DNA of 64,000 nucleotides, from NCBI RefSeq assembly GCF_041468085.1, contig NZ_CP121014.1, forward strand, positions 62,001 to 126,000, given 5' to 3'. Positions 5,197-64,000 of the stretch are shown here, one piece after another. The notes under the pieces were generated by a model that was not told where the DNA came from, searched no databases, and saw only the letters and a program-made list of their open reading frames with translations. The stretch's first letter is position 1, and the number at the start of each line of letters is the position of its first letter. The position numbers were made by a program, and so were the translations under genes. The stretch comes from Tistrella mobilis. Its GTDB lineage: Bacteria; Pseudomonadota; Alphaproteobacteria; Tistrellales; Tistrellaceae.

Positions 5197-5859
5197 ATGT
5201 ACGAGTGGGATTTCGGCCTGTTGTGGGGCTATCGCTGGCTCTTCCTCGACGGGCTGTGGGTGACGGTCTCGTTCACCGTCGCCATCGTGGCCGGTGGCCT
5301 TGGGGTCGGGCTGGTCGGTGCGCTGGGGCTGCTCTGCCGTTTCGCGCCGCTGCGCCTGGCCAGCCTCGCCTTCATCGAGGTTTTCCGCTGCACGCCGATC
5401 CTGGTGCAGCTGATCTGGTGCTATTACGCCCTGCCGATCCTGGCGGGTATCGAACTCAGTGCCACCAGCGCGGCGCTGATCGCGCTGTCCTGCTATGGCG
5501 GTGCCTTCTATGCCGAGATCATCCGCGGCGGCATCGTCTCGATCGATCCCGGCCAAAGCGAGGCGGGGGCGGCGCTGGGCATGACGCCGGCGCAGACCAT
5601 GCGGCGGATCATCCTGCCCCAGGCGCTTCGGCGCATGATCCCGGCGCTGATGAACCAGTCGATCCTGCAGTTCAAGAACACCTCGCTGGTCTCGGTGCTG
5701 GCGGTGCCCGATCTGGTCTATCAGGGCCAGATGGCCGCCCATGACAGCTTCCGGCCGCTTGAGACCTATACCGCGATCGCGGTCGCCTATTTCGTCATCC
5801 TGTTCCCGCTGACGCTGTTCGTCCGCCATCGGGAGCGCAGGCTGGGGGGCCGGTCATGA
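5197..5859 (+). CDS. Polar amino-acid ABC transporter permease
   Basis: A 220-residue HisM/GlnP-type inner-membrane permease with about five transmembrane helices. The cytoplasmic coupling loop carries the EAA motif, here EAGAALGMTPAQTMRRIILPQALRR split across residues ~125-150, which contacts the ATPase. FRCTPILVQLIWCYYALP in the first third is also typical of the family. Only one permease is present, so the transporter probably works as a homodimer or with an unlinked partner. Its stop codon overlaps the start of the ATPase gene (ATGA), indicating translational coupling. Confidence 0.92.
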   Translation: MYEWDFGLLWGYRWLFLDGLWVTVSFTVAIVAGGLGVGLVGALGLLCRFAPLRLASLAFIEVFRCTPILVQLIWCYYALPILAGIELSATSAALIALSCYGGAFYAEIIRGGIVSIDPGQSEAGAALGMTPAQTMRRIILPQALRRMIPALMNQSILQFKNTSLVSVLAVPDLVYQGQMAAHDSFRPLETYTAIAVAYFVILFPLTLFVRHRERRLGGRS

Positions 5860-48342: not shown

Positions 48343-49548
48343 ATGTCCGTCGCCTTCAGACCGTCCGACGTCATCACTGCCCGTTTCGAACTCTCGGCGC
48401 CGATGTTCTCGGGCCAGGAGGGCGACAAGGGCCCGGCCGAGATCCGCCCGACCGAAATCAAGGCCGCGCTGCGCTTCTGGTGGCGCGCGCTCGCCTGGGG
48501 GCGCGGCGTGCGCACGCCTCAGGCGCTGAAGGAGCAGGAAGACATCCTGTTCGGCGCGGCGGCGGATGAGGGCCGGAACGGCGCCGGCGGGCGGGGGCAG
48601 GGGGCGTTTCTGTTGCGGGTGCGGACGGATCGGCTGCTCCCCCTGCCGAAGGGAACCGGGCTGGGGACGTTCTTTCCTCAAAAGGATGGGCGCCAGCGGC
48701 AAAGGCGAGAGGCGATGGCGGGGGCACAGTATGCGGGGTACGGGCTGATTGCCACGGGTGACGCGCCAACAACCGTGCGCCCTGGCCTTGATAAGGGCAG
48801 CACCTTCGACGTCACTTTTCTGCCCCGCCTCACGCTTTCGCCCGTGCAGAAAGCAGAATTGCTGCAGGCTGTGAGGCTCTTCGGCCTCCTGGGTGGTCTT
48901 GGCGGACGCGTGCGCCGCGGATTCGGCAGCGTCAGCCTCCAGGCGCTTTCCTTCGACGGGCGACGTGTCGCTGGCCCGACAAGGCGTGTGGACTATGTCC
49001 GCCAGCTACAACAGCTGATGCCCGATACAGACACGACTGGCGAGCCGGACTGGACAGCATTCTTCGGCACATCCTCTGGCATGGGAACCATCTGCGCCAT
49101 CGCCTGGGAGAGGTTTACGTCGCCTCTGGGCGTGATCGGTGCGTTCGGTCACGACCTGAAGTCCTATCGCAAGGATCTGAGAGCCGGCGTACCCCAAAAG
49201 ATCGCGCTCGGCCTGCCGCAACACCACAAAGGATCGAGCGAGTTGTCGACCCTTGAAGCCGGCAACAAACAGGGCCGCCGGGCCAGCCCGGTCATGCTTC
49301 ATGTGCACAGGCTGTCGGACGGGTATGTCGGGGTGGTCACGGTCTTTCCCGGCCGTTTCCTGCCGAATGATGCACGAATTGCCGTCTTCCCCTCCGGAGG
49401 TTCGCCACAGATCCAGCGCTACAGCCGCCTGCACGCATCCGACGCGATCGGCATTCTCGGCGGCCCGGCCCTCCCGGTATCCGCCAGAGGACCGATCAAG
49501 ATCGAGGATCAGGATATGATTTTCGCAGGTCAGGTGACCGATGCCTGA
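48343..49548 (+). CDS. cmr1: Type III-B CRISPR RAMP protein Cmr1
   Basis: A 401-residue RAMP protein at the head of the cmr operon. The N-terminal RAMP domain has the Cmr1 hallmark ELSAPMFSGQ...RPTEIKAALRFWWRAL (about residues 15-46), and the glycine-rich loop LLGGLGGRVRRGFGSV lies near 180-195. Cmr1 sits at the 3' end of the effector filament, near the target-binding region. A longer frame from 48217 exists, but family homology begins at MSVAFRPSD, so ATG 48343 is preferred. The stop overlaps cmr2 by 8 bp. Confidence 0.92.
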   Translation: MSVAFRPSDVITARFELSAPMFSGQEGDKGPAEIRPTEIKAALRFWWRALAWGRGVRTPQALKEQEDILFGAAADEGRNGAGGRGQGAFLLRVRTDRLLPLPKGTGLGTFFPQKDGRQRQRREAMAGAQYAGYGLIATGDAPTTVRPGLDKGSTFDVTFLPRLTLSPVQKAELLQAVRLFGLLGGLGGRVRRGFGSVSLQALSFDGRRVAGPTRRVDYVRQLQQLMPDTDTTGEPDWTAFFGTSSGMGTICAIAWERFTSPLGVIGAFGHDLKSYRKDLRAGVPQKIALGLPQHHKGSSELSTLEAGNKQGRRASPVMLHVHRLSDGYVGVVTVFPGRFLPNDARIAVFPSGGSPQIQRYSRLHASDAIGILGGPALPVSARGPIKIEDQDMIFAGQVTDA

Positions 49549-51568
49549 GCAGACATGGTTCATCCTCTCCATCACCCCCGTCCAGGAATTCGTCGGCCAG
49601 GCGCGCCGCACCCGCGATCTCTGGGCCGGATCCTATCTTCTGTCCTGGCTGTCGGCGCAGGCGATGGCGGCGGTGAAGAAGGCGGGCGGAGAGATCGTCA
49701 TGCCGCAGGTGGACGACGATCCGATGATCAGGCTTCTGATCCACGGCAATGGGGTGACACCGCCGGTCGTCGGATCACTGCCCAACCAGTTCACCGCACG
49801 CCTGCCCGTGGGTGTCGGGCCTGAGATCTGCCGCGAGGCCGTCCAGGGTGCCTGGCGAAAGCTTGCCGAGGCGGTCTGGTGCAAGTTCGTCAAACCGGTC
49901 AAGGAGCTTTCCAACTTCCACGACCTGTCCGCGGTCTGGACGCAGCAGATCGAGGGTTTTTGGGAAATCGCCTGGGTGGTCGTGCCGACGGTCGACGGCG
50001 AGGACGGGCGGCAGACCCTGAAGCGCGCCGGAGACCTGCTGCGTCGGCGCAAGCTCTGGCGCAGGCATCTGCTGCCGGATGAATACGCCACGCTTGGCCG
50101 CGAGGGCGGCGATCACTGCCAGCTGATGCCCGACTGGCGGGAATTGTCGGGTTATGCCCGGGCGAGCCATGCGGACGCGCAGGATGCCTTCTGGGGCAGC
50201 ATCCGCGACCAGATCGGGATGATACTTGGGCACAATGCCATAGAGTTGGCGCAAGGCGAACGTTTGTGCGCACCGGCGCTGGTCAAGCGTCTGTTCCCGA
50301 CCTTGCCAGCCTGTGCGTTGAAAAGCGCCATCGACTGGGTGCCTGGCAACGACAGCGGCAGGATCCGCTCATGGCCTTCTACCCGCTATATGGCGGTGCT
50401 GCCCTGGCTTCGGCGGGTCGCGAACCGGCATGTCGCGAACAAGCCGTTTATCGACCGGCTTAGGGACCTTGTCGGAAATGATTTCCAGACCGAGAGCGGA
50501 TCCGCTGCGCATCTGGCCAGCGATCTGGGGGAGATCGGCAAGCTTGACGGCAACCTCTTCGATCGGGATGCCCTCAGGAACACCAAAGACTTTCCCATCG
50601 CGGACAACAAAGCCGGCGACCGTCGCCGGGACTTGGAGGCTGCCCGCGCCGCTCTCGTAACCGCCGCCGGTATCGGCGAGCCCGCCACCCATTACGCCCT
50701 GCTGCTGATGGATGGCGACCGGATCGGCACGGCGCTGGCGCAGGCGGGGCCGGGCGCGATTGCGACCTTGTTCAAGAGGTTCGGCAAGCAGGTGACCCAG
50801 ACGATCTGGCGGCATGACGGCATCTGCATCTATGCCGGCGGTGATGATGTGCTGGCCCTGCTGTCGGTGCCGGATGCGGTGACCTGCGCGCGTGAGCTGC
50901 GTGAGCACTGGACGAAAGCGGCCGAGGCGGCGATGGGCGAGGGCACCCGACCCACCATCTCTGCCGCCGTGATCTTCGCCGAGGCCACCGTGCCGCTGCG
51001 CCTGGTGCTGGCCCGGGCGCATGAGGTGCTGGACGAGGTGGCAAAGAACGGCAATGGCCGCGACAGCCTGGCCGCCGACATCATTCGCGGTGGCGATTTC
51101 AGCCGCAGCTGGGTGTCGCAATGGGATGCGCCGGGTGTCGAGGCCTTTGCGGGGTTCGCGTCGGGACAGCACGCGCCGCTCGCCGCCTCGTCGGGCCTGC
51201 TGCATGCGATCGGCGGGCGCTTCGGGGCGCCGGTGCTGGACCTTTTTGCCGATGGCGGCCATGACGATGATTTCGAGCGTCTGCTGGCCCAGGCCCATCT
51301 CAGGAATCGCAGCCGGGATCTGCCGGCCATGGATGCGCCCGGGGGCGACCTCTCCGAAGAGGAGAGGCTCAAGATCGCCCGCGAGGAAATCCGGCCGCTC
51401 GTGGCTCTGCTCCGCGAGGTGCCGGGCGGGGCAGGGGCCCGGCGTGGCCGGCCGTGCCTCAACCCGGATGCCGCCCTGTTCCTGCGCTTCTTTGCCCGCC
51501 AGTCGGTCGGCGGTGCCCGGTCGCAGGTGCCGATACCGGATGTGGCCGATACGGGAGACGGCCGATGA
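49541..51568 (+). CDS. cmr2: Type III-B Cas10 (Cmr2), GGDD cyclase, no HD domain
   Basis: A 675-residue large subunit. It starts directly with the first palm-like domain, WFILSITPVQEFVGQARRTR, with no N-terminal HD nuclease domain of the kind many longer Cmr2 proteins carry. The second palm domain keeps the diphosphate-metal site YALLLMDGDRIG (about 386-397) and an intact GGDD (433-436, in YAGGDDVLALL). It should therefore be able to make cyclic oligoadenylate or a related messenger when target RNA binds, but not cut DNA by HD. The C-terminal helical region includes RDLPAMDAPGGDLSEEERLK. It overlaps cmr1 and cmr3. Confidence 0.94.
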   Translation: MPEQTWFILSITPVQEFVGQARRTRDLWAGSYLLSWLSAQAMAAVKKAGGEIVMPQVDDDPMIRLLIHGNGVTPPVVGSLPNQFTARLPVGVGPEICREAVQGAWRKLAEAVWCKFVKPVKELSNFHDLSAVWTQQIEGFWEIAWVVVPTVDGEDGRQTLKRAGDLLRRRKLWRRHLLPDEYATLGREGGDHCQLMPDWRELSGYARASHADAQDAFWGSIRDQIGMILGHNAIELAQGERLCAPALVKRLFPTLPACALKSAIDWVPGNDSGRIRSWPSTRYMAVLPWLRRVANRHVANKPFIDRLRDLVGNDFQTESGSAAHLASDLGEIGKLDGNLFDRDALRNTKDFPIADNKAGDRRRDLEAARAALVTAAGIGEPATHYALLLMDGDRIGTALAQAGPGAIATLFKRFGKQVTQTIWRHDGICIYAGGDDVLALLSVPDAVTCARELREHWTKAAEAAMGEGTRPTISAAVIFAEATVPLRLVLARAHEVLDEVAKNGNGRDSLAADIIRGGDFSRSWVSQWDAPGVEAFAGFASGQHAPLAASSGLLHAIGGRFGAPVLDLFADGGHDDDFERLLAQAHLRNRSRDLPAMDAPGGDLSEEERLKIAREEIRPLVALLREVPGGAGARRGRPCLNPDAALFLRFFARQSVGGARSQVPIPDVADTGDGR

Positions 51569-52629
51569 CCGGGCGCTTCGACCGCATTTTCGCCTTCCGC
51601 CCGGTGGACACGCTGTTCTTCCGCAGCGGCCGGCCGTTCAACCAGAGCGACCCCGGCGCCGCCGAGGCCGAGAGCCTGTTCCCGCCCAACCCGCCGACCC
51701 TCGTCGGCGCCGTGCGCAACGCCCTGGCCCAGGCGCTTGAGGGCCCCCGTGGTGGCCGATGGTCGGAGACGACCGCCGGGCTGCTGAATGGCGGGCATCT
51801 GCGTTTCGGTGCACCCTTCCTGGCGCTGAACGGCGAACGGCTCTACCCGGCCCCGGCCGCCTTGCTGCGCTTGGAGGACGAGAAGCTGGCCCGCGCCCGG
51901 CCGGGCGAGGTGATCGAGACCGATCTGGGCCCGACCTGCCTGCCCGAGCTGCCGGAGAAATCGAAGATGGTCACCGATGCCTGGCTGACCGCCGGTGGCA
52001 TGACCTGCTTCCTGGCGGGCCAGGTGCCCGCGGAGGGCGATCTGCGCCTGACCGCGTGCCTCTGGAAATCCGAACCGCGCATCGGCATCGGCCGCGACGT
52101 GGCGACACGGCGGGTGGAGGAGGGCGCGCTCTACGCCCCGGTCCATATCCGTCCGGCCGAGGGGCTGGAGATCTGCGTGCGGGTGCAGGCGACCGATCCA
52201 CAGGTCGCCGCGCGGCTGGCCGGGCTGGATGGCCTGCCGGGCACCGTCGCCCTGGGCGGCGAGCATCGCGCAGCCGGGCTCCGCGATGTGGCGCCGGATG
52301 GGATCACCGAGGCCACCGAGCCGCCGGGTGCCGGGGCCGTCGTGGTCGCGACCGGCCCGGTGATCGCCACACCGGCCCTGTTGACCCCCGGCGGAGCGCT
52401 CGGCCGCGGCGGCGGCAGCATTCGCATGGTCTGCGCCAGGAAGCCCGGCATGATCGGCGGCTGGGATGATCTGGGCCGACGCCCGCACCCCATGCGGCCG
52501 GTGCTGACCGCCGGCACCACCTGGTTTCTCGATGGCGCGACCGGCACGCCCGGCCCTCTGGGGCCCCGGCATCGCTGGGGCTTCGGCGATTGCCTCTCTG
52601 GTATTCTGCACGACGATAAGGCGAGTTGA
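51565..52629 (+). CDS. cmr3: Type III-B RAMP protein Cmr3
   Basis: A 354-residue RAMP protein. The Cmr3 signature is RPVDTLFFRSGRPF near the N-terminus, then PPTLVGAVRNALAQ, and in the middle EPRIGIGRDVATRRVEEGAL followed by YAPVHIRP. Cmr3 caps the crRNA 5' tag together with Cmr2. ATG 51565 overlaps the cmr2 stop as ATGA, and the next gene begins 2 bp after its own stop. An ORF opening at 51454 is in the same frame but overlaps cmr2. Confidence 0.92.
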   Translation: MTGRFDRIFAFRPVDTLFFRSGRPFNQSDPGAAEAESLFPPNPPTLVGAVRNALAQALEGPRGGRWSETTAGLLNGGHLRFGAPFLALNGERLYPAPAALLRLEDEKLARARPGEVIETDLGPTCLPELPEKSKMVTDAWLTAGGMTCFLAGQVPAEGDLRLTACLWKSEPRIGIGRDVATRRVEEGALYAPVHIRPAEGLEICVRVQATDPQVAARLAGLDGLPGTVALGGEHRAAGLRDVAPDGITEATEPPGAGAVVVATGPVIATPALLTPGGALGRGGGSIRMVCARKPGMIGGWDDLGRRPHPMRPVLTAGTTWFLDGATGTPGPLGPRHRWGFGDCLSGILHDDKAS

Positions 52630-52631
52630 TC

Positions 52632-53474
52632 ATGAGCGACGTGATGTTCGGTCTTCTGGCCGAAACCTTCCTCCACCCCGGCAGTGGCCAGAGCGATGGC
52701 GCGATCGATCTCAAGGTGGCGCGCGAGGCGGTGACCGGCTATCCCTACATCCCCGGCTCGGCGGTGAAGGGCGCCCTGCGTGCCGCCATGTGCGACGGCG
52801 GCGGCGAGCACAAAGGGCATGTCGATGCGGCGTTCGGCCAGGTGGATGGGGCCGGCAGCGTGCTGGTGTCGGATGCCCGCCTGCTGCTGCTGCCGGTACG
52901 CTCGCTCACCCGGGCCTATCTCTGGCTGACCTGCCCGCTGATCCTGGAGCGACTGCGGCGGGATCTGGAGCGGGCCGGTTTGAAGGGCGGTGATGTGCCG
53001 ACTCTCACGGTCGATCGCGGCAAGGCGCTGACCGGGATCACCGGCCGGATCTTCCTGGAAGACCGGCTGTTCGAGGCCGATATATCCAAGCTGCCGCCGG
53101 CCATTCCGGAGGTGATCGGCCAGCTGATCGCCGATGACGGCGCCCGCGGGCGGTTGAGCGACCAGCTCTGCATCATCTCCAATCATGATTTCCGCTGGTT
53201 CGCCGAAAATGCCCTGCCGGTGCAGGCGCGCAATGTGCTGGACCCCGCCACCAAGGCCAGCAACAACCTCTGGTACGAGGAAAGCCTGCCGCCCGACACG
53301 CTGCTCTACATGACCCTGACAGCCCGCGGCTCGGCGGACGAGACGGGACGAACAGCGGTGGCGGGTTTCGTCGAGGGCCAGAAATTTCTCCAGTTCGGCG
53401 GCAATGAAACCGTCGGTCAGGGCTGGGTGCGGGCGGGCCGATATCCGCAGCCTGCGCCGGAGGGCGGCCGATGA
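52632..53474 (+). CDS. cmr4: Type III-B backbone RNase subunit Cmr4
   Basis: A 280-residue RAMP protein that forms the filament backbone and cuts target RNA. From ATG 52632 the catalytic Asp candidate is Asp26 in SDGAIDLKVARE, matching the known active-site Asp of Cmr4 proteins. YPYIPGSAVKGALRAAM follows, and the C-terminal Gly-rich loop is FGGNETVGQGWVR. A TTG at 52626 would add two residues. The gene overlaps cmr5 by 4 bp. With the catalytic Asp present, RNA cleavage at 6-nt intervals is expected. Confidence 0.92.
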   Translation: MSDVMFGLLAETFLHPGSGQSDGAIDLKVAREAVTGYPYIPGSAVKGALRAAMCDGGGEHKGHVDAAFGQVDGAGSVLVSDARLLLLPVRSLTRAYLWLTCPLILERLRRDLERAGLKGGDVPTLTVDRGKALTGITGRIFLEDRLFEADISKLPPAIPEVIGQLIADDGARGRLSDQLCIISNHDFRWFAENALPVQARNVLDPATKASNNLWYEESLPPDTLLYMTLTARGSADETGRTAVAGFVEGQKFLQFGGNETVGQGWVRAGRYPQPAPEGGR

Positions 53475-53881
53475 CCACGACGCCATCCCTCGACATGCTG
53501 CGGGCGAAGCATGCCTATGCGGCCGTCAAGACGGTGACCGGCGCGCAGCTGGTGGACTATAAGCGGGCGGCCCGGCAGATGCCGGCGCGGGTGCTGACCA
53601 ACGGCATCGGTCAGGCCCTGGCGATGCTGATGCGCGATGGGAGTTCCGACGCGGAGAGCCAACGTCTCTGCGGCCATCTCACGGCGTGGCTGACGGACGG
53701 GACCACACCTCATCCCTTCCCTCTCGCCGCGAACAAGACGCTGATCGAGCAGCTGGTCCTGGGCGACCAGGAGCTGTTCGTCTGGATGCAGCGCGAGACG
53801 CTGGCTTATCTGGGCTGGCTGAAGACCTTTGCCGAGGCCGGCATCTCCGCCGGGGAAGGAGGTGCGGATGACGGGAAATGA
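53471..53881 (+). CDS. cmr5: Type III-B small subunit Cmr5
   Basis: A 136-residue all-helical protein. RAKHAYAAVKTV near the N-terminus and the repeating helices AARQMPARVLTNGIGQALAM and ETLAYLGWLKTFAEAG are typical of Cmr5, which forms the minor filament beside Cmr4. Its 3' end overlaps cmr6 by 14 bp, and its start overlaps cmr4 as ATGA. Sequence conservation in this family is low, so assignment rests on operon position plus the KHAY and YLGWLK patterns. Confidence 0.88.
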   Translation: MTTTPSLDMLRAKHAYAAVKTVTGAQLVDYKRAARQMPARVLTNGIGQALAMLMRDGSSDAESQRLCGHLTAWLTDGTTPHPFPLAANKTLIEQLVLGDQELFVWMQRETLAYLGWLKTFAEAGISAGEGGADDGK

Positions 53882-54770
53882 CCGGCGGAAACCCGGTGGC
53901 GGGAAGCCGGCGCGCCATCCCGACCGACCACTGCCGTCCCGGCCGCTCTTCCGGCTGCCAAGTTTCACGGAAGCGGTTGAGGCATTCGGGCAGCTGCGCT
54001 CGACGCCGGATGACAGGTGGCCTGAGGGTATGCGCCCGAATCCCGGCCTCTATTTCGATCGCTTCTATGATGGCTGGCCGGACAGGTGGGGAACCAAAGA
54101 AGACCCCGCCGCGAAGGCGGGTTTCCTCGATCGCGTCATCACATGTGCAAAGGCGGCGAAGACCGGCGATGCCCTGAACGCCATGCTCGCCCGACGCTCT
54201 GATCTGGTCCGGAGCCGCAGCGGCCGGTCTGCCCGGTTCACGAGCGACTGGCGCTGGACTGCCGGTCTGGGCCGCAGCAGCCCGGTCGAGAACGGCTTCA
54301 ACTGGCATCACAGCCTGGGCGTGCCCTATCTGCCCGGCTCGTCGGTCAAGGGCATGCTGCGCAGCTGGTACGAGACCTGGGGCGGCAGCGATGATGACGT
54401 CACGGCCCTGTTCGGCCCCAGGCCCGGCAAGGGGGTCGACCTCACGGCCGGCCGCCTTATCGTCCTCGACGCCCTGCCGGTGCCGGAGGTGAAGCTGGTC
54501 CGCGACGTGATGACGCCCCATTACGGCCCCTATTACGCCGGCGGCGACAACCCGCCGGCCCCGGGCGACTGGTACAGCCCGATCCCCATCCCCTTCCTGA
54601 CCCTGGCCCCGGGCCAGGTTTTCGACTTCGCGATCCTGCCGCGCCGGCCCCGGGATCAGGACATCCTGGACGAGGTGATGGCTCAGCTGGCGGCGGCGCT
54701 GGACTGGATCGGCACCGGCGCGAAGACGGCGGTGGGGTATGGGCGGTTCAGCCCGGAAGTGAAATCATGA
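53868..54770 (+). CDS. cmr6: Type III-B RAMP protein Cmr6
   Basis: A 300-residue RAMP protein. A Pro/Arg-rich N-terminal tail precedes the conserved core: FNWHHSLGVPYLPGSSVKGM, then LRSWYETWG, and late GAKTAVGYGRFSPE. The metal-like HYGPYYAGGDNPPAPGDW segment is also characteristic. Cmr6 sits next to Cmr1 at the filament end. A strong GGAAGGAGG precedes ATG 53868. The start at 53829 in the same frame is less likely. Confidence 0.92.
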   Translation: MTGNDRRKPGGGKPARHPDRPLPSRPLFRLPSFTEAVEAFGQLRSTPDDRWPEGMRPNPGLYFDRFYDGWPDRWGTKEDPAAKAGFLDRVITCAKAAKTGDALNAMLARRSDLVRSRSGRSARFTSDWRWTAGLGRSSPVENGFNWHHSLGVPYLPGSSVKGMLRSWYETWGGSDDDVTALFGPRPGKGVDLTAGRLIVLDALPVPEVKLVRDVMTPHYGPYYAGGDNPPAPGDWYSPIPIPFLTLAPGQVFDFAILPRRPRDQDILDEVMAQLAAALDWIGTGAKTAVGYGRFSPEVKS

Positions 54771-58600: not shown

Positions 58601-58614
58601 TTGATCTGGATCAA
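58601..58614. promoter_or_regulatory. FNR/ANR/FixK-type box
   Basis: TTGATCTGGATCAA is a perfect TTGAT-N4-ATCAA site for an oxygen-responsive FNR/FixK regulator. bd-type oxidases are common targets under low oxygen. The site is 456 bp upstream of the cioA start and 114 bp upstream of the acyl-CoA synthetase start, so it could serve either strand. Confidence 0.75.
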
Positions 58615-58651
58615 AGCGCGGCGCCCGATTCCGTGAGAGGCTGGCCATTCC

Positions 58652-58667
58652 ATACCAAGAGGTATTG
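58652..58667. promoter_or_regulatory. Operator copy 1 of ATACC-N4-RGTAYTG
   Basis: ATACCAAGAGGTATTG contains the exact inverted repeat ATACC / GGTAT with a 4-bp centre. It lies 60 bp before the acyl-CoA synthetase start. Similar sites stand at 60359 and 63346, before the other two transcription units of this catabolic group. The regulator is not encoded in the window. Confidence 0.6.
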
Positions 58668-58727
58668 ACTCAACGGCGACGTCACGGTACTTCCTTGTCC
58701 AACGAATAGCGACGCAGGGAGGACGAA

Positions 58728-60302
58728 ATGACGTCGCAGGCTCCGGCCGTTCACGGCCGTGGCGAGCCCCGGCCGGCCTTCGGGTCCGTGCTGGCGGCCT
58801 TCGACCACGCCGTCACCCAACATCCTGAAACCACGGCACTCGTCCATCGCGGCCGCAGCCTGGATTATGCGGCCGAGGGTCGCGCGGTGGCTGAACTCGC
58901 GGCCTGGATCGGATCCGGCGGCTTTGCCGGCCGCACCGTGGTTCTGCTGATCCCGAACGGGATCGAGTATCATCTGGCATACTTTGCGGTCTTGTACGCC
59001 GGCGCGACGCCGGTGCTGCTGAACCCGCTCTACCCCGCGCCGGCGCTGGAACCGCTGTTTGCCGATGCCGAACCGGCACTGGTGCTGACGGTGCCCGAAA
59101 CGGCAGAGGCCGCCCGCGCGCTGATGCCCCGTTTCGGCCACCAGGTGCTGGTGCTGGGCAAGGGGGATTTCACGCCCGAGGCCCTGGCTGCCCGCGGGCC
59201 GGCGGTCTGGACGCCGCGCGAGGTCTCGCCCGAGGCGCCGGCCGCGCTGATGTTCACCGGCGGCACCACCGGCATCTCCAAGGCGATCATCCACAGCCAT
59301 CGGGCGATGATGGATGCGATCCTGCGCATCGACTGGGGTTGGCCGACCCGCGCCCATGGCGAGATCTGGCTGCCGGTCGCGCCGATGTTCCACATCTATG
59401 GCTGGCTGTTCGGGGTGGGCAATCCCGTCCATGCCTGTGCGACGCTGGTGATCCCCGATCGTTTCCAGCCGGATCACGTCGTCGATCTGATCGCGCATCA
59501 CCGGGTCACGGTGTTCGGCGGCGGCCCCCCGGCCATCTATCAGGGGCTGATGGCGGCGCAGCAGTTCGAGACCGCCGATCTCTCTTCGCTCGCCGTCTGC
59601 GGCGGCGGCGGCGCGCCCTTCCCGGTGGAGGTGCTGAAGCGCTGGAAGGACCGGACCGGGGTCGACATCGCCGAAGGCTATGGCATGACCGAGATTGCGC
59701 CGATCGCGGTCAACACCGACAGTTTCGGCCGCAAGGCCGGGTCGGTCGGCAAGCCGGTGCCGGATGTCGCGATCCGCATCGCCGATCTGAACGACTGGTC
59801 GCGGGAATTGCCGACGGGTGAGGCGGGGGAGGTCTGCGTGCGCGGGCCGCACGCCCTGACCGAATACCGCAACCGGCCCGACGAGACCGCCGCCACCATC
59901 CGCGATGGCTGGGTGCTGACCGGCGATATCGGTTTCGTCGATGCCGAAGGCTTCCTGACCATCACCGACCGCAAGAAGGACGTGATCCTGGTCAAGGGGT
60001 TCAACGTCTTCCCGCGCGAGGTTGAAGAGGTCATCCACCAGCATCCGGATGTCCGCGGCGTGGGCGTGGTGAGCCTGCCCGATGCGCGCGCCGGCGAACG
60101 GATCATCGCCTTCGTGGTCGTCGACCCCTATGCCGGGACCGGTGTGGCGGAGCTGACGGCCCATTGCAAGGCCCGGCTCGTCGCCTACAAGGTGCCGGCC
60201 GAGATCCGCCTGATCGAGGATCTGCCGCTGACCCCGGCCCGCAAGCTGGACCGGATCGCGCTGCGCCGCCAGGCGGCAGAGGCGGCAGAGGCTGCGGCCT
60301 GA
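58728..60302 (+). CDS. AMP-forming acyl-CoA synthetase
   Basis: A 524-residue ANL-superfamily ligase. Core motifs: ALMFTGGTTGISKAIIHSH (A3 P-loop), EGYGMTEIAP (A5), TGDIGFVD (A7), DRKKDVILVKGFNVFPREVE (A8) and the C-terminal LPLTPARKLDRIAL with the catalytic Lys (A10). It converts a carboxylate to its CoA thioester. A terminator follows immediately, so it is a separate unit from the TRAP genes, but all share one operator sequence. The meta-cleavage-type hydrolase gene downstream hints at an aromatic acid, but the substrate is not determined. Confidence 0.92.
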   Translation: MTSQAPAVHGRGEPRPAFGSVLAAFDHAVTQHPETTALVHRGRSLDYAAEGRAVAELAAWIGSGGFAGRTVVLLIPNGIEYHLAYFAVLYAGATPVLLNPLYPAPALEPLFADAEPALVLTVPETAEAARALMPRFGHQVLVLGKGDFTPEALAARGPAVWTPREVSPEAPAALMFTGGTTGISKAIIHSHRAMMDAILRIDWGWPTRAHGEIWLPVAPMFHIYGWLFGVGNPVHACATLVIPDRFQPDHVVDLIAHHRVTVFGGGPPAIYQGLMAAQQFETADLSSLAVCGGGGAPFPVEVLKRWKDRTGVDIAEGYGMTEIAPIAVNTDSFGRKAGSVGKPVPDVAIRIADLNDWSRELPTGEAGEVCVRGPHALTEYRNRPDETAATIRDGWVLTGDIGFVDAEGFLTITDRKKDVILVKGFNVFPREVEEVIHQHPDVRGVGVVSLPDARAGERIIAFVVVDPYAGTGVAELTAHCKARLVAYKVPAEIRLIEDLPLTPARKLDRIALRRQAAEAAEAAA

Positions 60303-60320
60303 ACGCCGACCGACGGCCAT

Positions 60321-60349
60321 GGCGCGCCCTGTGTGGCGCGCCGCTTTTT
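60321..60349 (+). terminator. Rho-independent terminator after the acyl-CoA synthetase gene
   Basis: GGCGCGCC (60321-60328) pairs with a second GGCGCGCC (60335-60342), an 8-bp G+C-only stem with the loop CTGTGT, followed by GC and five T residues. It begins 19 bp after the synthetase stop. Confidence 0.8.
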
Positions 60350-60358
60350 GCCCTCAAC

Positions 60359-60374
60359 ATACCAAAGAGTACTG
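60359..60374. promoter_or_regulatory. Operator copy 2 of ATACC-N4-RGTAYTG
   Basis: ATACCAAAGAGTACTG matches copies 1 and 3 at ATACC, GTA and TG with the same 4-bp spacing. It lies 29 bp upstream of the TRAP binding-protein start and just after the terminator of the previous gene, so it marks a separate promoter. Confidence 0.55.
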
Positions 60375-60403
60375 CAGGGCGTCAGCAGAAGGGGGGATTG
60401 TCC

Positions 60404-61483
60404 ATGAAGATGCAAGGCCTGAGGCTCGCCGGCCTCAAACTCGCCGGCCTCAAACTCGGCGGCCTCAAACTCGGTCTGGCGACAGCCGGCGCCGTGTTCG
60501 CGATGACCGCGGCGGCCATGGCCGAGCCGGTGGTGCTGCGCTACAACCAGTGGTTCCCGACCGGCCATTGGTCGCAGACCGAGGGTCTGTATCCCTGGTT
60601 CGCCGAGATCGAGAAGGCGACCGAAGGCCGGGTGAAGGTGGAGCCGTCGGCCAAGCCGATCGCGCCGCCGAACCGCAATTATCAGGCGGTGGTCGACGGT
60701 GTCGCCGATCTCGCCTGGGGGCCTCATGGCTATACCCCCGGCGTGTTTCCGCTGACCGAAATGGTGGAACTGCCCTTCATCACCGAGGATGCCGGCAAAA
60801 GCTCGGTCGCCTTCTGGCGGCTGTGGGAGAATTATTTCGCGCCCACCGGCATGCAGGGCGATGTGGTGACACTGGCGATGCACGTCACCTCGGGCGGCAA
60901 CATCCATATGCGTGAGACCGCGGTCGAAAGCCTTGCCGACCTGAAGGCGCAGAAGATCCGCGTGCCCACCCCCACCGTCGGCCGGGTGCTGAAGGATGTG
61001 GGCGCGGTGCCGGTTTCGGGGTCGCTGGGTGAACTGCGCGAGATGCTCTCTCGCGGCATCATCGACGGCACGGCGATTTCCGACGAACTGGTCACCGGCT
61101 TCAAGGTCGAACAGTATGTGAAGCACGTTACCCGCATCCCCGGCGGGCTCTATTCCAACGCCGCCTTCGTGATCGTCAACAAGGCGAAGTGGGACAAGAT
61201 CTCGGAAGCCGACCGTGCCGCCATCCTGAAGCTGTCGGGCGAGACGCTCTCGGAAAAGATGGGCGCCCTCTGGCACAGACACGACCTGATCGCGCGTGAG
61301 GCCATCAAGGCCGAACTGGGCGATGCCTATCGTGATGCCAGCCCGGCCTTCGTGGCCGAATTGAAGGCTGCCTTCCAGCCGGCCGAGGTGGCATGGCTGG
61401 AACAGGCCGCGAAGCTCGGTGTCGACGGCGGCGGCGCGCTCGATTTCTACCGCGCCGAACTGGCCCGCAGCGGGGGCAAGTAA
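60404..61483 (+). CDS. TRAP transporter periplasmic binding protein (DctP type)
   Basis: A 359-residue secreted binding protein. The signal peptide is unusual: after the initiator come repeats of a five-residue unit (LAGLK, LAGLK, LGGLK) encoded by a 15-bp tandem repeat, then a normal hydrophobic core and MAEPV cleavage region. The mature chain has VVLRYNQWFPTGHW, LADLKAQKIRVPTPTVGRVL with the substrate-carboxylate Arg, and SRGIIDGTAISDELV. The permease genes follow at 61488 and 62006. ATG 60404 is preceded by AAGGGGGG. Confidence 0.92.
   Translation: MKMQGLRLAGLKLAGLKLGGLKLGLATAGAVFAMTAAAMAEPVVLRYNQWFPTGHWSQTEGLYPWFAEIEKATEGRVKVEPSAKPIAPPNRNYQAVVDGVADLAWGPHGYTPGVFPLTEMVELPFITEDAGKSSVAFWRLWENYFAPTGMQGDVVTLAMHVTSGGNIHMRETAVESLADLKAQKIRVPTPTVGRVLKDVGAVPVSGSLGELREMLSRGIIDGTAISDELVTGFKVEQYVKHVTRIPGGLYSNAAFVIVNKAKWDKISEADRAAILKLSGETLSEKMGALWHRHDLIAREAIKAELGDAYRDASPAFVAELKAAFQPAEVAWLEQAAKLGVDGGGALDFYRAELARSGGK
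60425..60469 (+). repeat. Three 15-bp tandem repeats inside the signal-peptide region
   Basis: CTCGCCGGCCTCAAA occurs twice exactly (60425-60439, 60440-60454) and once with one change (60455-60469). Units are in frame, so gain or loss of a copy would change signal-peptide length by five residues without a frameshift. A fourth, diverged unit begins at 60470. Confidence 0.85.
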
Positions 61484-61487
61484 GGCC

Positions 61488-62009
61488 ATGATCGCCCTGA
61501 TCCGCATGGTGCGCGGCCTGACCGACCGGATCGCCATGGGCACGCTGATGCTCATGGCCCTGGTCACCTTCGTCGACGTCGCCGGCCGGGTGCTGTTCAA
61601 CGCGCCGCTGGGCTTCGCCTACGAGATGATCGGCGTGCTGCTGGGCCTTGCCACCTATGCCGGGCTCTATGCCACCCAGCTGCATCGCGGTCATATCGCG
61701 ATCGACCTGCTGGAAGATCGCTACCGGCGCTGGCCACGGTTCGATGCGGCCCGGGGCGGCCTGGTCTGGCTGGTGGAGGCTCTGTTCTGGGGGCTGGTCG
61801 CCGCCTGGATCACCCGCCAGGCCGGCACCTCCATGGCCTATGGCGAGACCTTTCTCTTCCTGCCGGTTCCGAAGCATGTGCCGCTCTATGCCATCGCGGT
61901 GCTTGCCTGGGTGGCGCTGGCCGGCCACCTGGCCCGGGGCTGGCTGTCGCTGACCGGCCGTGACATCACGCCCCCCGCCGGGGCCGGCAAAGCGGAGCAG
62001 GTCGGATGA
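61488..62009 (+). CDS. TRAP transporter small permease (DctQ type)
   Basis: A 173-residue four-helix membrane protein. IAMGTLMLMALVTFVDVAGRV is the first helix with the conserved Asp-Val-x-x-Arg, and HRGHIAIDLLEDRYRRWP is the charged loop that identifies DctQ. It starts 4 bp after the binding-protein stop and overlaps the large permease gene by 4 bp (ATGA). A longer frame from 61419 overlaps the binding-protein gene and is not needed. Confidence 0.9.
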   Translation: MIALIRMVRGLTDRIAMGTLMLMALVTFVDVAGRVLFNAPLGFAYEMIGVLLGLATYAGLYATQLHRGHIAIDLLEDRYRRWPRFDAARGGLVWLVEALFWGLVAAWITRQAGTSMAYGETFLFLPVPKHVPLYAIAVLAWVALAGHLARGWLSLTGRDITPPAGAGKAEQVG

Positions 62010-63295
62010 TCGTCACCATCGCTTTCCTGATCCTGTTCGCGCTGCTGCTGCTGCGCACACCGATCGCGGCCGCCACCGGCCTGGTCGGCATCGGCGGGCT
62101 TGCGGTCTATCAGGGCATCGGCCCGGCGCTGTCGCAGATCGGCATCATCGCCACCGAGACGGTGCTCACCTATGAATTCGCGGTCATCCCGCTGTTCATC
62201 CTGATGGGCGCCTTCATCAGCCGGTCGGGCATCGCCGAGGAGCTCTACCGGGCCTGCCATGCCCTGGTCGGCCATCGCCGGGGCGGGCTCGCGGTCGCCA
62301 CCGTCGTCGCCTGCGGCGGCTTCGGGGCGGTCTGCGGCTCCAGCCTCGCCACCGCGGCCACCATGTCGCGGGTCGCCTATCCGCCGATGAAAAAATACGG
62401 CTACAGCGATGCGCTGGCCTCGGGCTCGATCGCGGCCGGCGGCACGCTCGGCATCCTGATCCCGCCTTCGATCGCGCTGGTCTTCTACGGCATCCTGACC
62501 GAGACCGATATCGGCCAGCTGTTCATCGCCGGGCTTCTGCCGGGTGTGGTCGGCATCCTGTTCTATGCCGCGGCGGTGGTGGCGGTCACCACGTTCGACC
62601 GCACCGCCGGGCCGGCGGCGGACCGGATGCCGCTGGCTGAACGGCTGAGGGCGCTGCGCGATGTCTGGGCCACGGGTCTGCTGTTCTTCATCGTGATGGG
62701 CGGCATCTATGGCGGGTTCTTCTCGCCCACCGAAAGCGCCGGCATCGGCGCGGTCGGCGCCCTGCTCATCACCGCCGCCCGTGGCCGGGCGACGTTCTCC
62801 ATGATCCGCGATGCGCTGACCGATGCCGCCCATACCACCGTCGCCCTGATCGCGATCCTGATCGGCGCCTTCCTCTTCGCCAATCTGATCAATGTGGCAA
62901 GCGTCCCCCAGGCGCTGGTCGCCTGGATCGGGGCTCTGGACGTGCCGCCGCTGGTGGTGATCCTGGCGATCATCGGCGTCTATCTGGTGCTGGGCTGCGT
63001 GCTGGAAAGCATGTCGATGATGCTGCTGACCGTGCCGGTGTTCTATCCGCTGGTCGCGAGCCTGGGCTACGACCTGATCTGGTTCGGCATCGTGGTGGTG
63101 GTGGTGACCGAGATCAGCCTGATCACCCCGCCGATCGGCCTCAACGTCTTCGTGCTGCGCGCGGTGCTGCCCGATGTCCGGCTGGCCTCGGTGTTCCGCG
63201 GGGTCATGCCCTTCATCGCCGCCGATATCGTCCGGCTTGCCCTCATCCTGTTCGTGCCCTGGCTGTCGCTGGCCCTGCCGCAGCTGATGCGCTAG
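62006..63295 (+). CDS. TRAP transporter large permease (DctM type)
   Basis: A 429-residue protein with about twelve helices. EFAVIPLFILMGAFISRSGIA and GGFGAVCGSSLATAATMSRVAYPPMKKYGY match the conserved DctM regions, with SIAAGGTLGILIPPSIALVFYG (about 145-166) and LITPPIGLNVFVLRAVLPDV near the C-terminus. It completes the importer. The following hydrolase gene is preceded by its own operator copy, so it may also be transcribed separately. Confidence 0.94.
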   Translation: MIVTIAFLILFALLLLRTPIAAATGLVGIGGLAVYQGIGPALSQIGIIATETVLTYEFAVIPLFILMGAFISRSGIAEELYRACHALVGHRRGGLAVATVVACGGFGAVCGSSLATAATMSRVAYPPMKKYGYSDALASGSIAAGGTLGILIPPSIALVFYGILTETDIGQLFIAGLLPGVVGILFYAAAVVAVTTFDRTAGPAADRMPLAERLRALRDVWATGLLFFIVMGGIYGGFFSPTESAGIGAVGALLITAARGRATFSMIRDALTDAAHTTVALIAILIGAFLFANLINVASVPQALVAWIGALDVPPLVVILAIIGVYLVLGCVLESMSMMLLTVPVFYPLVASLGYDLIWFGIVVVVVTEISLITPPIGLNVFVLRAVLPDVRLASVFRGVMPFIAADIVRLALILFVPWLSLALPQLMR

Positions 63296-63345
63296 CCGAT
63301 CCTGCCCTTTGTCATGTCCCCGACCATGGGGTTGCGTCTCTTCCA

Positions 63346-63361
63346 TACCTTCAGGTACTGA
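63346..63361. promoter_or_regulatory. Operator copy 3 of ATACC-N4-RGTAYTG
   Basis: ATACCTTCAGGTACTG is the third copy of the shared motif. It is 15 bp before the hydrolase start, upstream of its AAAAGGAA ribosome binding site. A regulator bound here could block initiation or early elongation. Confidence 0.55.
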
Positions 63362-63376
63362 AAAGGAACTGCACAG

Positions 63377-64000
63377 ATGAATGCTCAGGCCCCTGCCGCC
63401 ATCCAGGTCGTGACCCGCACCATCCAGGCCCATGATCACCGCACCAATCTGCACGAGGCCGGCCAGGGCCGCCCGGTGGTGCTGCTCCACGGTTCCGGCG
63501 CCGGTGTCTCGGCCGCGGCCAACTGGTCGAAGGTGATCCCGGATCTCGCCCGGCATTTCCACGTCATCGCCCCCGATATCGCCGGTTTCGGCATGACCGA
63601 ACTCAAGCCCGATGCGCGCTACGACATCAAGCTCTGGGTTGCGCATTTCATCGGCATCCTGGATGCGCTGGGCCTTGAGAAGGTGAGCGTGGTGGGCAAT
63701 TCCTTCGGCGGCGCGCTGGGGCTTGCGACCGCGCTGTCGCATCCCGCCCGTATCGACCGGCTGGTCCTGCTCGGCACCCCCTGCGGCGAATTCCCGATGA
63801 CCGACGGCCTGCGGGCGCAGCTGGAATTCGACGGCACGATCGAGGGCATGCGCCGCGCGGTCAGCTTCTTCCCCTATGACGACAGCATCATCACCGAAGA
63901 GCTGATCCAGCGCCGGTTCGAGGCGGCCACCCAGCCGGGGGCGCTTGAAGCCTTCCGCAAGCTGATGCCGGCCCCCACCGGCGACGAGCGGCCGACGGTG
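63377..64000 (+). CDS. Alpha/beta hydrolase, meta-cleavage product hydrolase-like (3' truncated by window edge)
   Basis: The first 208 residues of an alpha/beta hydrolase. The oxyanion-hole segment VVLLHGSGAGVSAAANWSKV is typical of C-C bond hydrolases of the DmpD/XylF/BphD group, and the nucleophile elbow is VVGNSFGGALGLA with Ser. PDIAGFGMTE and RLVLLGTPCGEFP also fit. These enzymes cut 2-hydroxy-6-oxo-dienoates in aromatic ring degradation. The His and the C-terminal part are outside the window. AAAAGGAA precedes the ATG. Other esterases share the fold, so substrate remains open. Confidence 0.88.
   Translation, partial: MNAQAPAAIQVVTRTIQAHDHRTNLHEAGQGRPVVLLHGSGAGVSAAANWSKVIPDLARHFHVIAPDIAGFGMTELKPDARYDIKLWVAHFIGILDALGLEKVSVVGNSFGGALGLATALSHPARIDRLVLLGTPCGEFPMTDGLRAQLEFDGTIEGMRRAVSFFPYDDSIITEELIQRRFEAATQPGALEAFRKLMPAPTGDERPTV

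Follow-up and report, generated by a model that had tools for sequence, protein, structure and literature searches.

MbdR of Azoarcus sp. CIB is the described regulator that comes nearest to the system reported here. It belongs to the TetR family (PDB 4uds) and serves the pathway of 3-methylbenzoate; its operators have the form ATAC-N10-GTAT and overlap promoters, the CoA ligase gene is controlled from a promoter of its own, and the inducer is a CoA thioester (PMC4424350). Residues Thr46-Lys47 of MbdR, eight residues before Phe54, were reported to be disordered (PMC4424350). Searches of the open-access literature for a published TetR protein with an ATAC-N6-GTAT operator, or for the catabolic cluster described here, gave no directly relevant paper other than that on MbdR.

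A stretch of 64,000 nucleotides from a Tistrella genome (C1:62001-126000, referred to as the window) contains a short motif, ATACC-N4-RGTAYTG, in front of genes for aromatic degradation. On the sequence evidence this motif is very probably the operator of a TetR-family protein encoded at C1:134419-135084, which would act at four sites and whose repression would be released by a pathway metabolite. The aromatic-degradation cluster now has a candidate regulator, operators and limits of its regulon. The circuit itself is of a common kind, while the regulator of this cluster is newly named.

The motif and its copies

Pattern searches, which were also used for the genome-wide scans, found three copies of ATACC-N4-RGTAYTG in the window, at 58652-58667, 60359-60374 and 63345-63360, all on the plus strand, where 0.01 would be expected by chance; none of 100 shuffles reached three. 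The preliminary description had placed three copies with the same internal spacing, each at the start of a transcription unit, and these positions proved exact. Its distances to the start codons were correct for acs (60 bp) and dctP (29 bp), but the last one, given as 15 bp, was measured as 16 bp for the hydrolase gene. The exact inverted repeat claimed for copy 1 is present as a dyad, but it is larger than described and extends, near-perfectly, over 20 bp (TCCATACC-AAGA-GGTATTGA, 58649-58668) with the core ATAC-N6-GTAT. The functional unit is this dyad of 14-20 bp around ATAC-N6-GTAT, not the 16-mer.

The genome-wide scan suggested at the same time gave only four exact matches in the whole 6.3 Mb genome (four contigs), three of them in the window and one in the other 6.2 Mb, so the motif is not frequent. 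Since the fourth exact match, at C4:1800339, lies within a dctP-like coding region, it is probably due to chance and was set aside. Copy 4 of the motif carries one mismatch (ATACCCCAGGGTCTTG, C1:135150-135165) and is found beyond the window end, between the TetR and the ferredoxin reductase genes. Genome-wide searches with the 16-mer at one or two mismatches showed no excess over the reversed-pattern control, thus a wider regulon is not claimed. The dyad pattern MATAC-N6-GTATK has two exact matches in the genome, one being operator 1 and the other lying in the promoter of the gene for a TetR paralogue, on contig C2.

Positions of the putative operators and of the genes of the aromatic-degradation cluster (window coordinates, unless contig C1 is named)
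Feature	Position	Strand	Remarks
Operator 1, TCCATACCAAGAGGTATTGA	58649-58668	+	upstream of the acyl-CoA synthetase gene; 20/20 columns conserved in three Tistrella
acs, AMP-dependent acyl-CoA synthetase gene	58728-60302	+	long-chain acyl-CoA ligase subfamily models, under the curated cut-offs
Terminator-like stem-loop with T-run	60320-60348 (stem-loop 60320-60343)	+	between acs and TRAP genes
Operator 2, AACATACCAAAGAGTACTGC	60356-60375	+	upstream of the TRAP genes; three Tistrella share the same 16-mer
dctP, TRAP transporter solute-binding protein gene	60404-61483	+	
dctQ, TRAP small permease gene	61488-62009	+	annotation of the T. mobilis orthologue
dctM, TRAP large permease gene	62006-63295	+	annotation of the T. 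mobilis orthologue
Operator 3, TCCATACCTTCAGGTACTGA	63342-63361	+	upstream of the meta-cleavage hydrolase operon; 20/20 columns conserved, flanks diverge
Meta-cleavage product hydrolase gene, CumD-like	63377-64000	+	truncated at the window end; opens the operon
Hydrolase operon	C1:125377-134428		hydrolase, LigA-like, LigB-like, ferredoxin, ring-hydroxylating dioxygenase alpha and beta, dihydrodiol dehydrogenase, nitronate-monooxygenase-like, MhpD, MhpF, MhpE
TetR regulator gene	C1:134419-135084	-	directly after the MhpE gene; outside the window
Operator 4	C1:135147-135166		between the TetR gene and the divergent ferredoxin reductase gene; outside the window

The gene assignments in the hydrolase operon agree with the annotation of the orthologous region on the T. 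mobilis plasmid pTM2, and the LigA-like and LigB-like products are ring-cleavage subunits. The strong terminator-like stem-loop between acs and the TRAP genes supports the view that copy 2 precedes a separate TRAP transcription unit.

Further features were seen in the window. The signal-peptide region of dctP (60404-60480) contains tandem repeats, LAGLKLAGLKLGGLKLG. An FNR/Anr-like box, TTGATCTGGATCAA, is situated at 58602-58615 in the gap that separates cydAB from the divergent acs and is conserved in the other Tistrella; it fits oxygen control of cydAB. The genes at 49541-54770 resemble, judged by eye from their translations, a type III (Cmr-like) CRISPR effector module.

The candidate regulator gene

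A TetR-family gene was located 8.4 kb beyond the window end, where the aromatic-degradation cluster ends; the preliminary description had stated that the regulator was absent from the window and had directed the search to genes past position 64000. Between C1:118000 and 137000 no regulator gene was recognised besides this one. Its product has the TetR_N helix-turn-helix at the N terminus (Pfam 33.6 bits, gathering score 24), and the all-helical TetR fold with a C-terminal ligand and dimer domain is seen in an AlphaFold2 model built for the T. mobilis orthologue (pLDDT 79). A palindromic operator at the regulated promoters, which belongs to the TetR/AcrR picture, is found as well. When the model was submitted to Foldseek, the best matches were mostly annotated as TetR-family or similar regulators. 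The nearest structures, with TM-scores around 0.6, included the acyl-CoA-sensing TetR proteins FadR of Bacillus and FasR, and also the drug-binding QacR; with such a mixture at this level of similarity the fold does not settle the ligand. The recognition helix reads VTKGSFYWHF, the region of this helix includes T59-K60 and F67, and 7/8 core bases are kept before the gene of the regulator itself.

Conservation in Tistrella and other bacteria

Two other Tistrella species carry the entire cluster with all four sites. When the promoter regions of the three were aligned, 79/80 operator columns were identical, compared to 432/612 of the other columns, some of which are coding. In the hydrolase promoter of T. 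mobilis the operator is unchanged, although the sequence on either side of it has diverged strongly. In one Tistrella (locus L047, about 5490-5590, upstream of dctP) the gap between acs and dctP consists of unrelated sequence without a terminator, and the adjoining operator is intact.

An alphaproteobacterium of another family (G016) has the orthologous pathway cluster, with a TetR protein about 40% identical. Here MATAC-N6-GTATK occurs at six places in 4.2 Mb, all of them at the cluster, within 25 kb (C1:1385285 to 1409569 of that genome): two before the hydrolase operon, one before the ferredoxin gene, two before a TonB-receptor gene and one between tetR and the ferredoxin reductase gene. 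The two operator-like sites ahead of the TonB-dependent-receptor-like gene (L071:7287-7352) suggest that the regulon of G016 includes an outer-membrane transporter. On plasmid pBcn842-1 of Burkholderia cenocepacia the orthologous operon is divergent from tetR, and overlapping ATAC-N6-GTAT sites are found in between. ATAC-N6-GTAT also stands between tetR and the LigAB-like genes of P. putida S12 plasmid pTTS12. In this latter locus (L088:12684-15606), close to the styrene genes, the TetR gene and the LigAB-like genes are accompanied by a partial match to a dioxygenase, so that the locus resembles what is left of a similar cluster. In a Hyphomicrobiaceae MAG, a 7/8-base site lies between tetR and the ferredoxin reductase gene. 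Genome G309 has a site flanked by the synthetase gene and a gene for a Rieske-type oxygenase, and the search around the start of tetR detected no site there.

As in a local regulon, the sites are restricted to the cluster and are retained at the promoters of orthologous genes. The dedicated regulon proposed from the three window copies gains support from the few matches in the genome and from the conservation of the motif at the orthologous promoters in other Tistrella, in G016 and on pBcn842-1, the same proposal having advised a look at homologues in related genomes; it is now refined to one cluster on one replicon.

The TetR subfamily and its operator class

The 57 TetR homologues collected came mostly from alphaproteobacteria, the rest belonging to further classes of the phylum, and 320 bases around their start codons were searched for ATAC-Nk-GTAT. 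An exact ATAC-N6-GTAT was found around the gene start of 35/57 homologues, while any other spacer from 0 to 15 gave 0-1 loci each and the downstream control region gave 1. Many of the loci have two copies, about 35-47 bp apart. Where the recognition helix starts with T[KR]G, 32/43 homologues had the exact site, and without T[KR]G 0/9 had it (0/24 after the set had been enlarged to 96 distinct proteins), these counts taking in related sequences. A single operator class, ATAC-N6-GTAT, can thus be assigned to a TetR subfamily that is present in many proteobacteria and frequently has acyl-CoA synthetase genes in the neighbourhood. The sites, the regulator gene, their conservation and the link of the subfamily to this palindrome can all be read from sequence comparison. 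Since the palindrome belongs to the subfamily and the matches in G016 are confined to the cluster, the motif is very probably the operator of a dedicated TetR regulon.

The helices differ in the residue that follows the Thr/Ser at their start. At base 5 of the operator, the Lys-type helices go with 127 G, 10 C, 7 T and no A, and the Arg-type ones with 30 A and 2 G. Taking the majority base, the division (G/C for Lys, A for Arg) holds in all 53 proteins with exact sites, and among representatives less than 55% identical it holds in 14/14 vs 9/9. The tree contains no more than 3 independent Lys/Arg pairs, of which 1 is supported and goes in the expected direction, therefore the association is not significant once corrected for descent. 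We consider it somewhat more likely than not that this residue sets base 5, so that Lys would specify ATAC(G/C) and Arg ATACA. Of the two Tistrella proteins, the TetR of the cluster combines a Lys-type helix with ATACC, and the paralogue on C2 an Arg-type helix with ATACA. If the code is true, related TetR repressors within one genome, such as these two, stay insulated from each other, and the target sites of uncharacterised members of the subfamily can be predicted from sequence alone.

The paralogue locus itself (L051, C2:4712-5421) has its own operator, CCATACAGGTCTGTATTG, adjoins genes for an FAD oxidoreductase and a TRAP-type transporter, and is probably a second local regulon.

Alternative explanations

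The motif could be recognised by a different regulator whose gene lies elsewhere, the neighbouring TetR being a bystander. The regulator gene lies about 14 kb from operator 1, and many catabolic clusters do use distant regulators. However, in dozens of genomes members of this subfamily have the dyad, at one fixed spacer, before their genes, it is absent wherever the recognition-helix motif is absent, and the TetR is the sole regulator recognised between C1:118000 and 137000, which together make the bystander case improbable. To the same small degree we allow that the TetR paralogue (C2:4712-5395), or both proteins, bind the motif, because the helix of the paralogue is of the same subfamily and one of the only two genomic MATAC-N6-GTATK sites precedes its gene. 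Its own site, however, is ATACA-N4-TGTAT, in contrast to ATACC-N4-RGTAY in the cluster, and as the Arg-type goes with A at base 5 and the Lys-type with G/C, the two are probably insulated.

It is very improbable that the motif is a promoter element, a recognition site of a sigma factor. The location 16-60 bp before the starts would suit such an element, and the last bases could form part of a -35 or -10 box, but the dyad symmetry, the variable distance to the starts, the confinement to one cluster and the way in which the motif tracks the TetR subfamily across classes argue for an operator. A chance similarity of three short sequences, spotted by eye, can be dismissed in view of the expectation of 0.01 in the window and the conservation in place across species.

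Proposed regulation of the cluster

With the cluster TetR as the preferred regulator, we infer binding, repression and autoregulation as follows. A TetR dimer would bind the ATAC-N6-GTAT dyad at four places, that is, before acs, before the TRAP uptake genes, before the hydrolase/dioxygenase operon and in the intergenic region between tetR and the ferredoxin reductase gene, and the bound protein would block the transcription of all these units, its own gene included. A pathway metabolite would then release it, so that uptake, activation, ring oxidation and ring cleavage would be switched on together.

Operator 1 reaches into a possible -35 box (TTGACT at 58665-58670, followed after 17 bp by TACTTC at 58688-58693, found by eye). 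Operators 2 and 3, from their short distances to the start codons, are probably at or just after the promoter. The promoter scan at the sites returned no good sigma-70 promoter, thus the overlap of operators and promoters was judged by eye. Since the window sites would lie over or just downstream of the promoters, a bound protein should block transcription; activation by the TetR instead of repression is a less likely alternative. Autoregulation may be weak, as only 7/8 core bases are present in operator 4 and likewise in the site next to tetR in the Hyphomicrobiaceae MAG.

As to the inducer, a CoA thioester made by the synthetase is a tentative guess, which could well prove wrong; other guesses are the aromatic acid that is taken up and an intermediate of ring cleavage. 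The separate control of acs in Tistrella and the synthetase genes near several homologues are compatible with the CoA thioester.

Comparison with known systems

The proposed repressor resembles MbdR in being a TetR repressor of an aromatic-acid pathway with ATAC/GTAT half-sites, and in that one regulator would govern several separate promoters, including those of the CoA ligase gene and of its own gene, from operators that would overlap the promoters. They differ in the operator spacer, which is N10 in MbdR and N6 in the cluster and its subfamily. Only residues 19-106, in the N-terminal region with the DNA-binding domain, can be aligned (E 5e-4), so the relationship does not extend over the full length. 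The pathways are also different, since MbdR serves an anaerobic CoA pathway, whereas the Tistrella cluster encodes a dioxygenase and meta-cleavage. By analogy MbdR may share the TK helix, as its Thr46-Lys47 and Phe54 are spaced like T59-K60 and F67 of the cluster TetR.

The acrylate utilization regulator AcuR (NCBIfam NF051457) is likewise a TetR-family protein with a weak N-terminal similarity; membership of the cluster TetR in this family was rejected (score 25.9, cut-off 247).

The enzymes of the cluster resemble those of the Hca/Mhp 3-phenylpropionate and the cumate/biphenyl meta-cleavage pathways, namely HcaE/HcaF/HcaB, the CumD-type hydrolase and MhpD-F-E. Compared to these pathways, the Tistrella cluster has a two-subunit LigAB-type ring-cleavage enzyme, TRAP uptake, an acyl-CoA synthetase and a TetR of its own.
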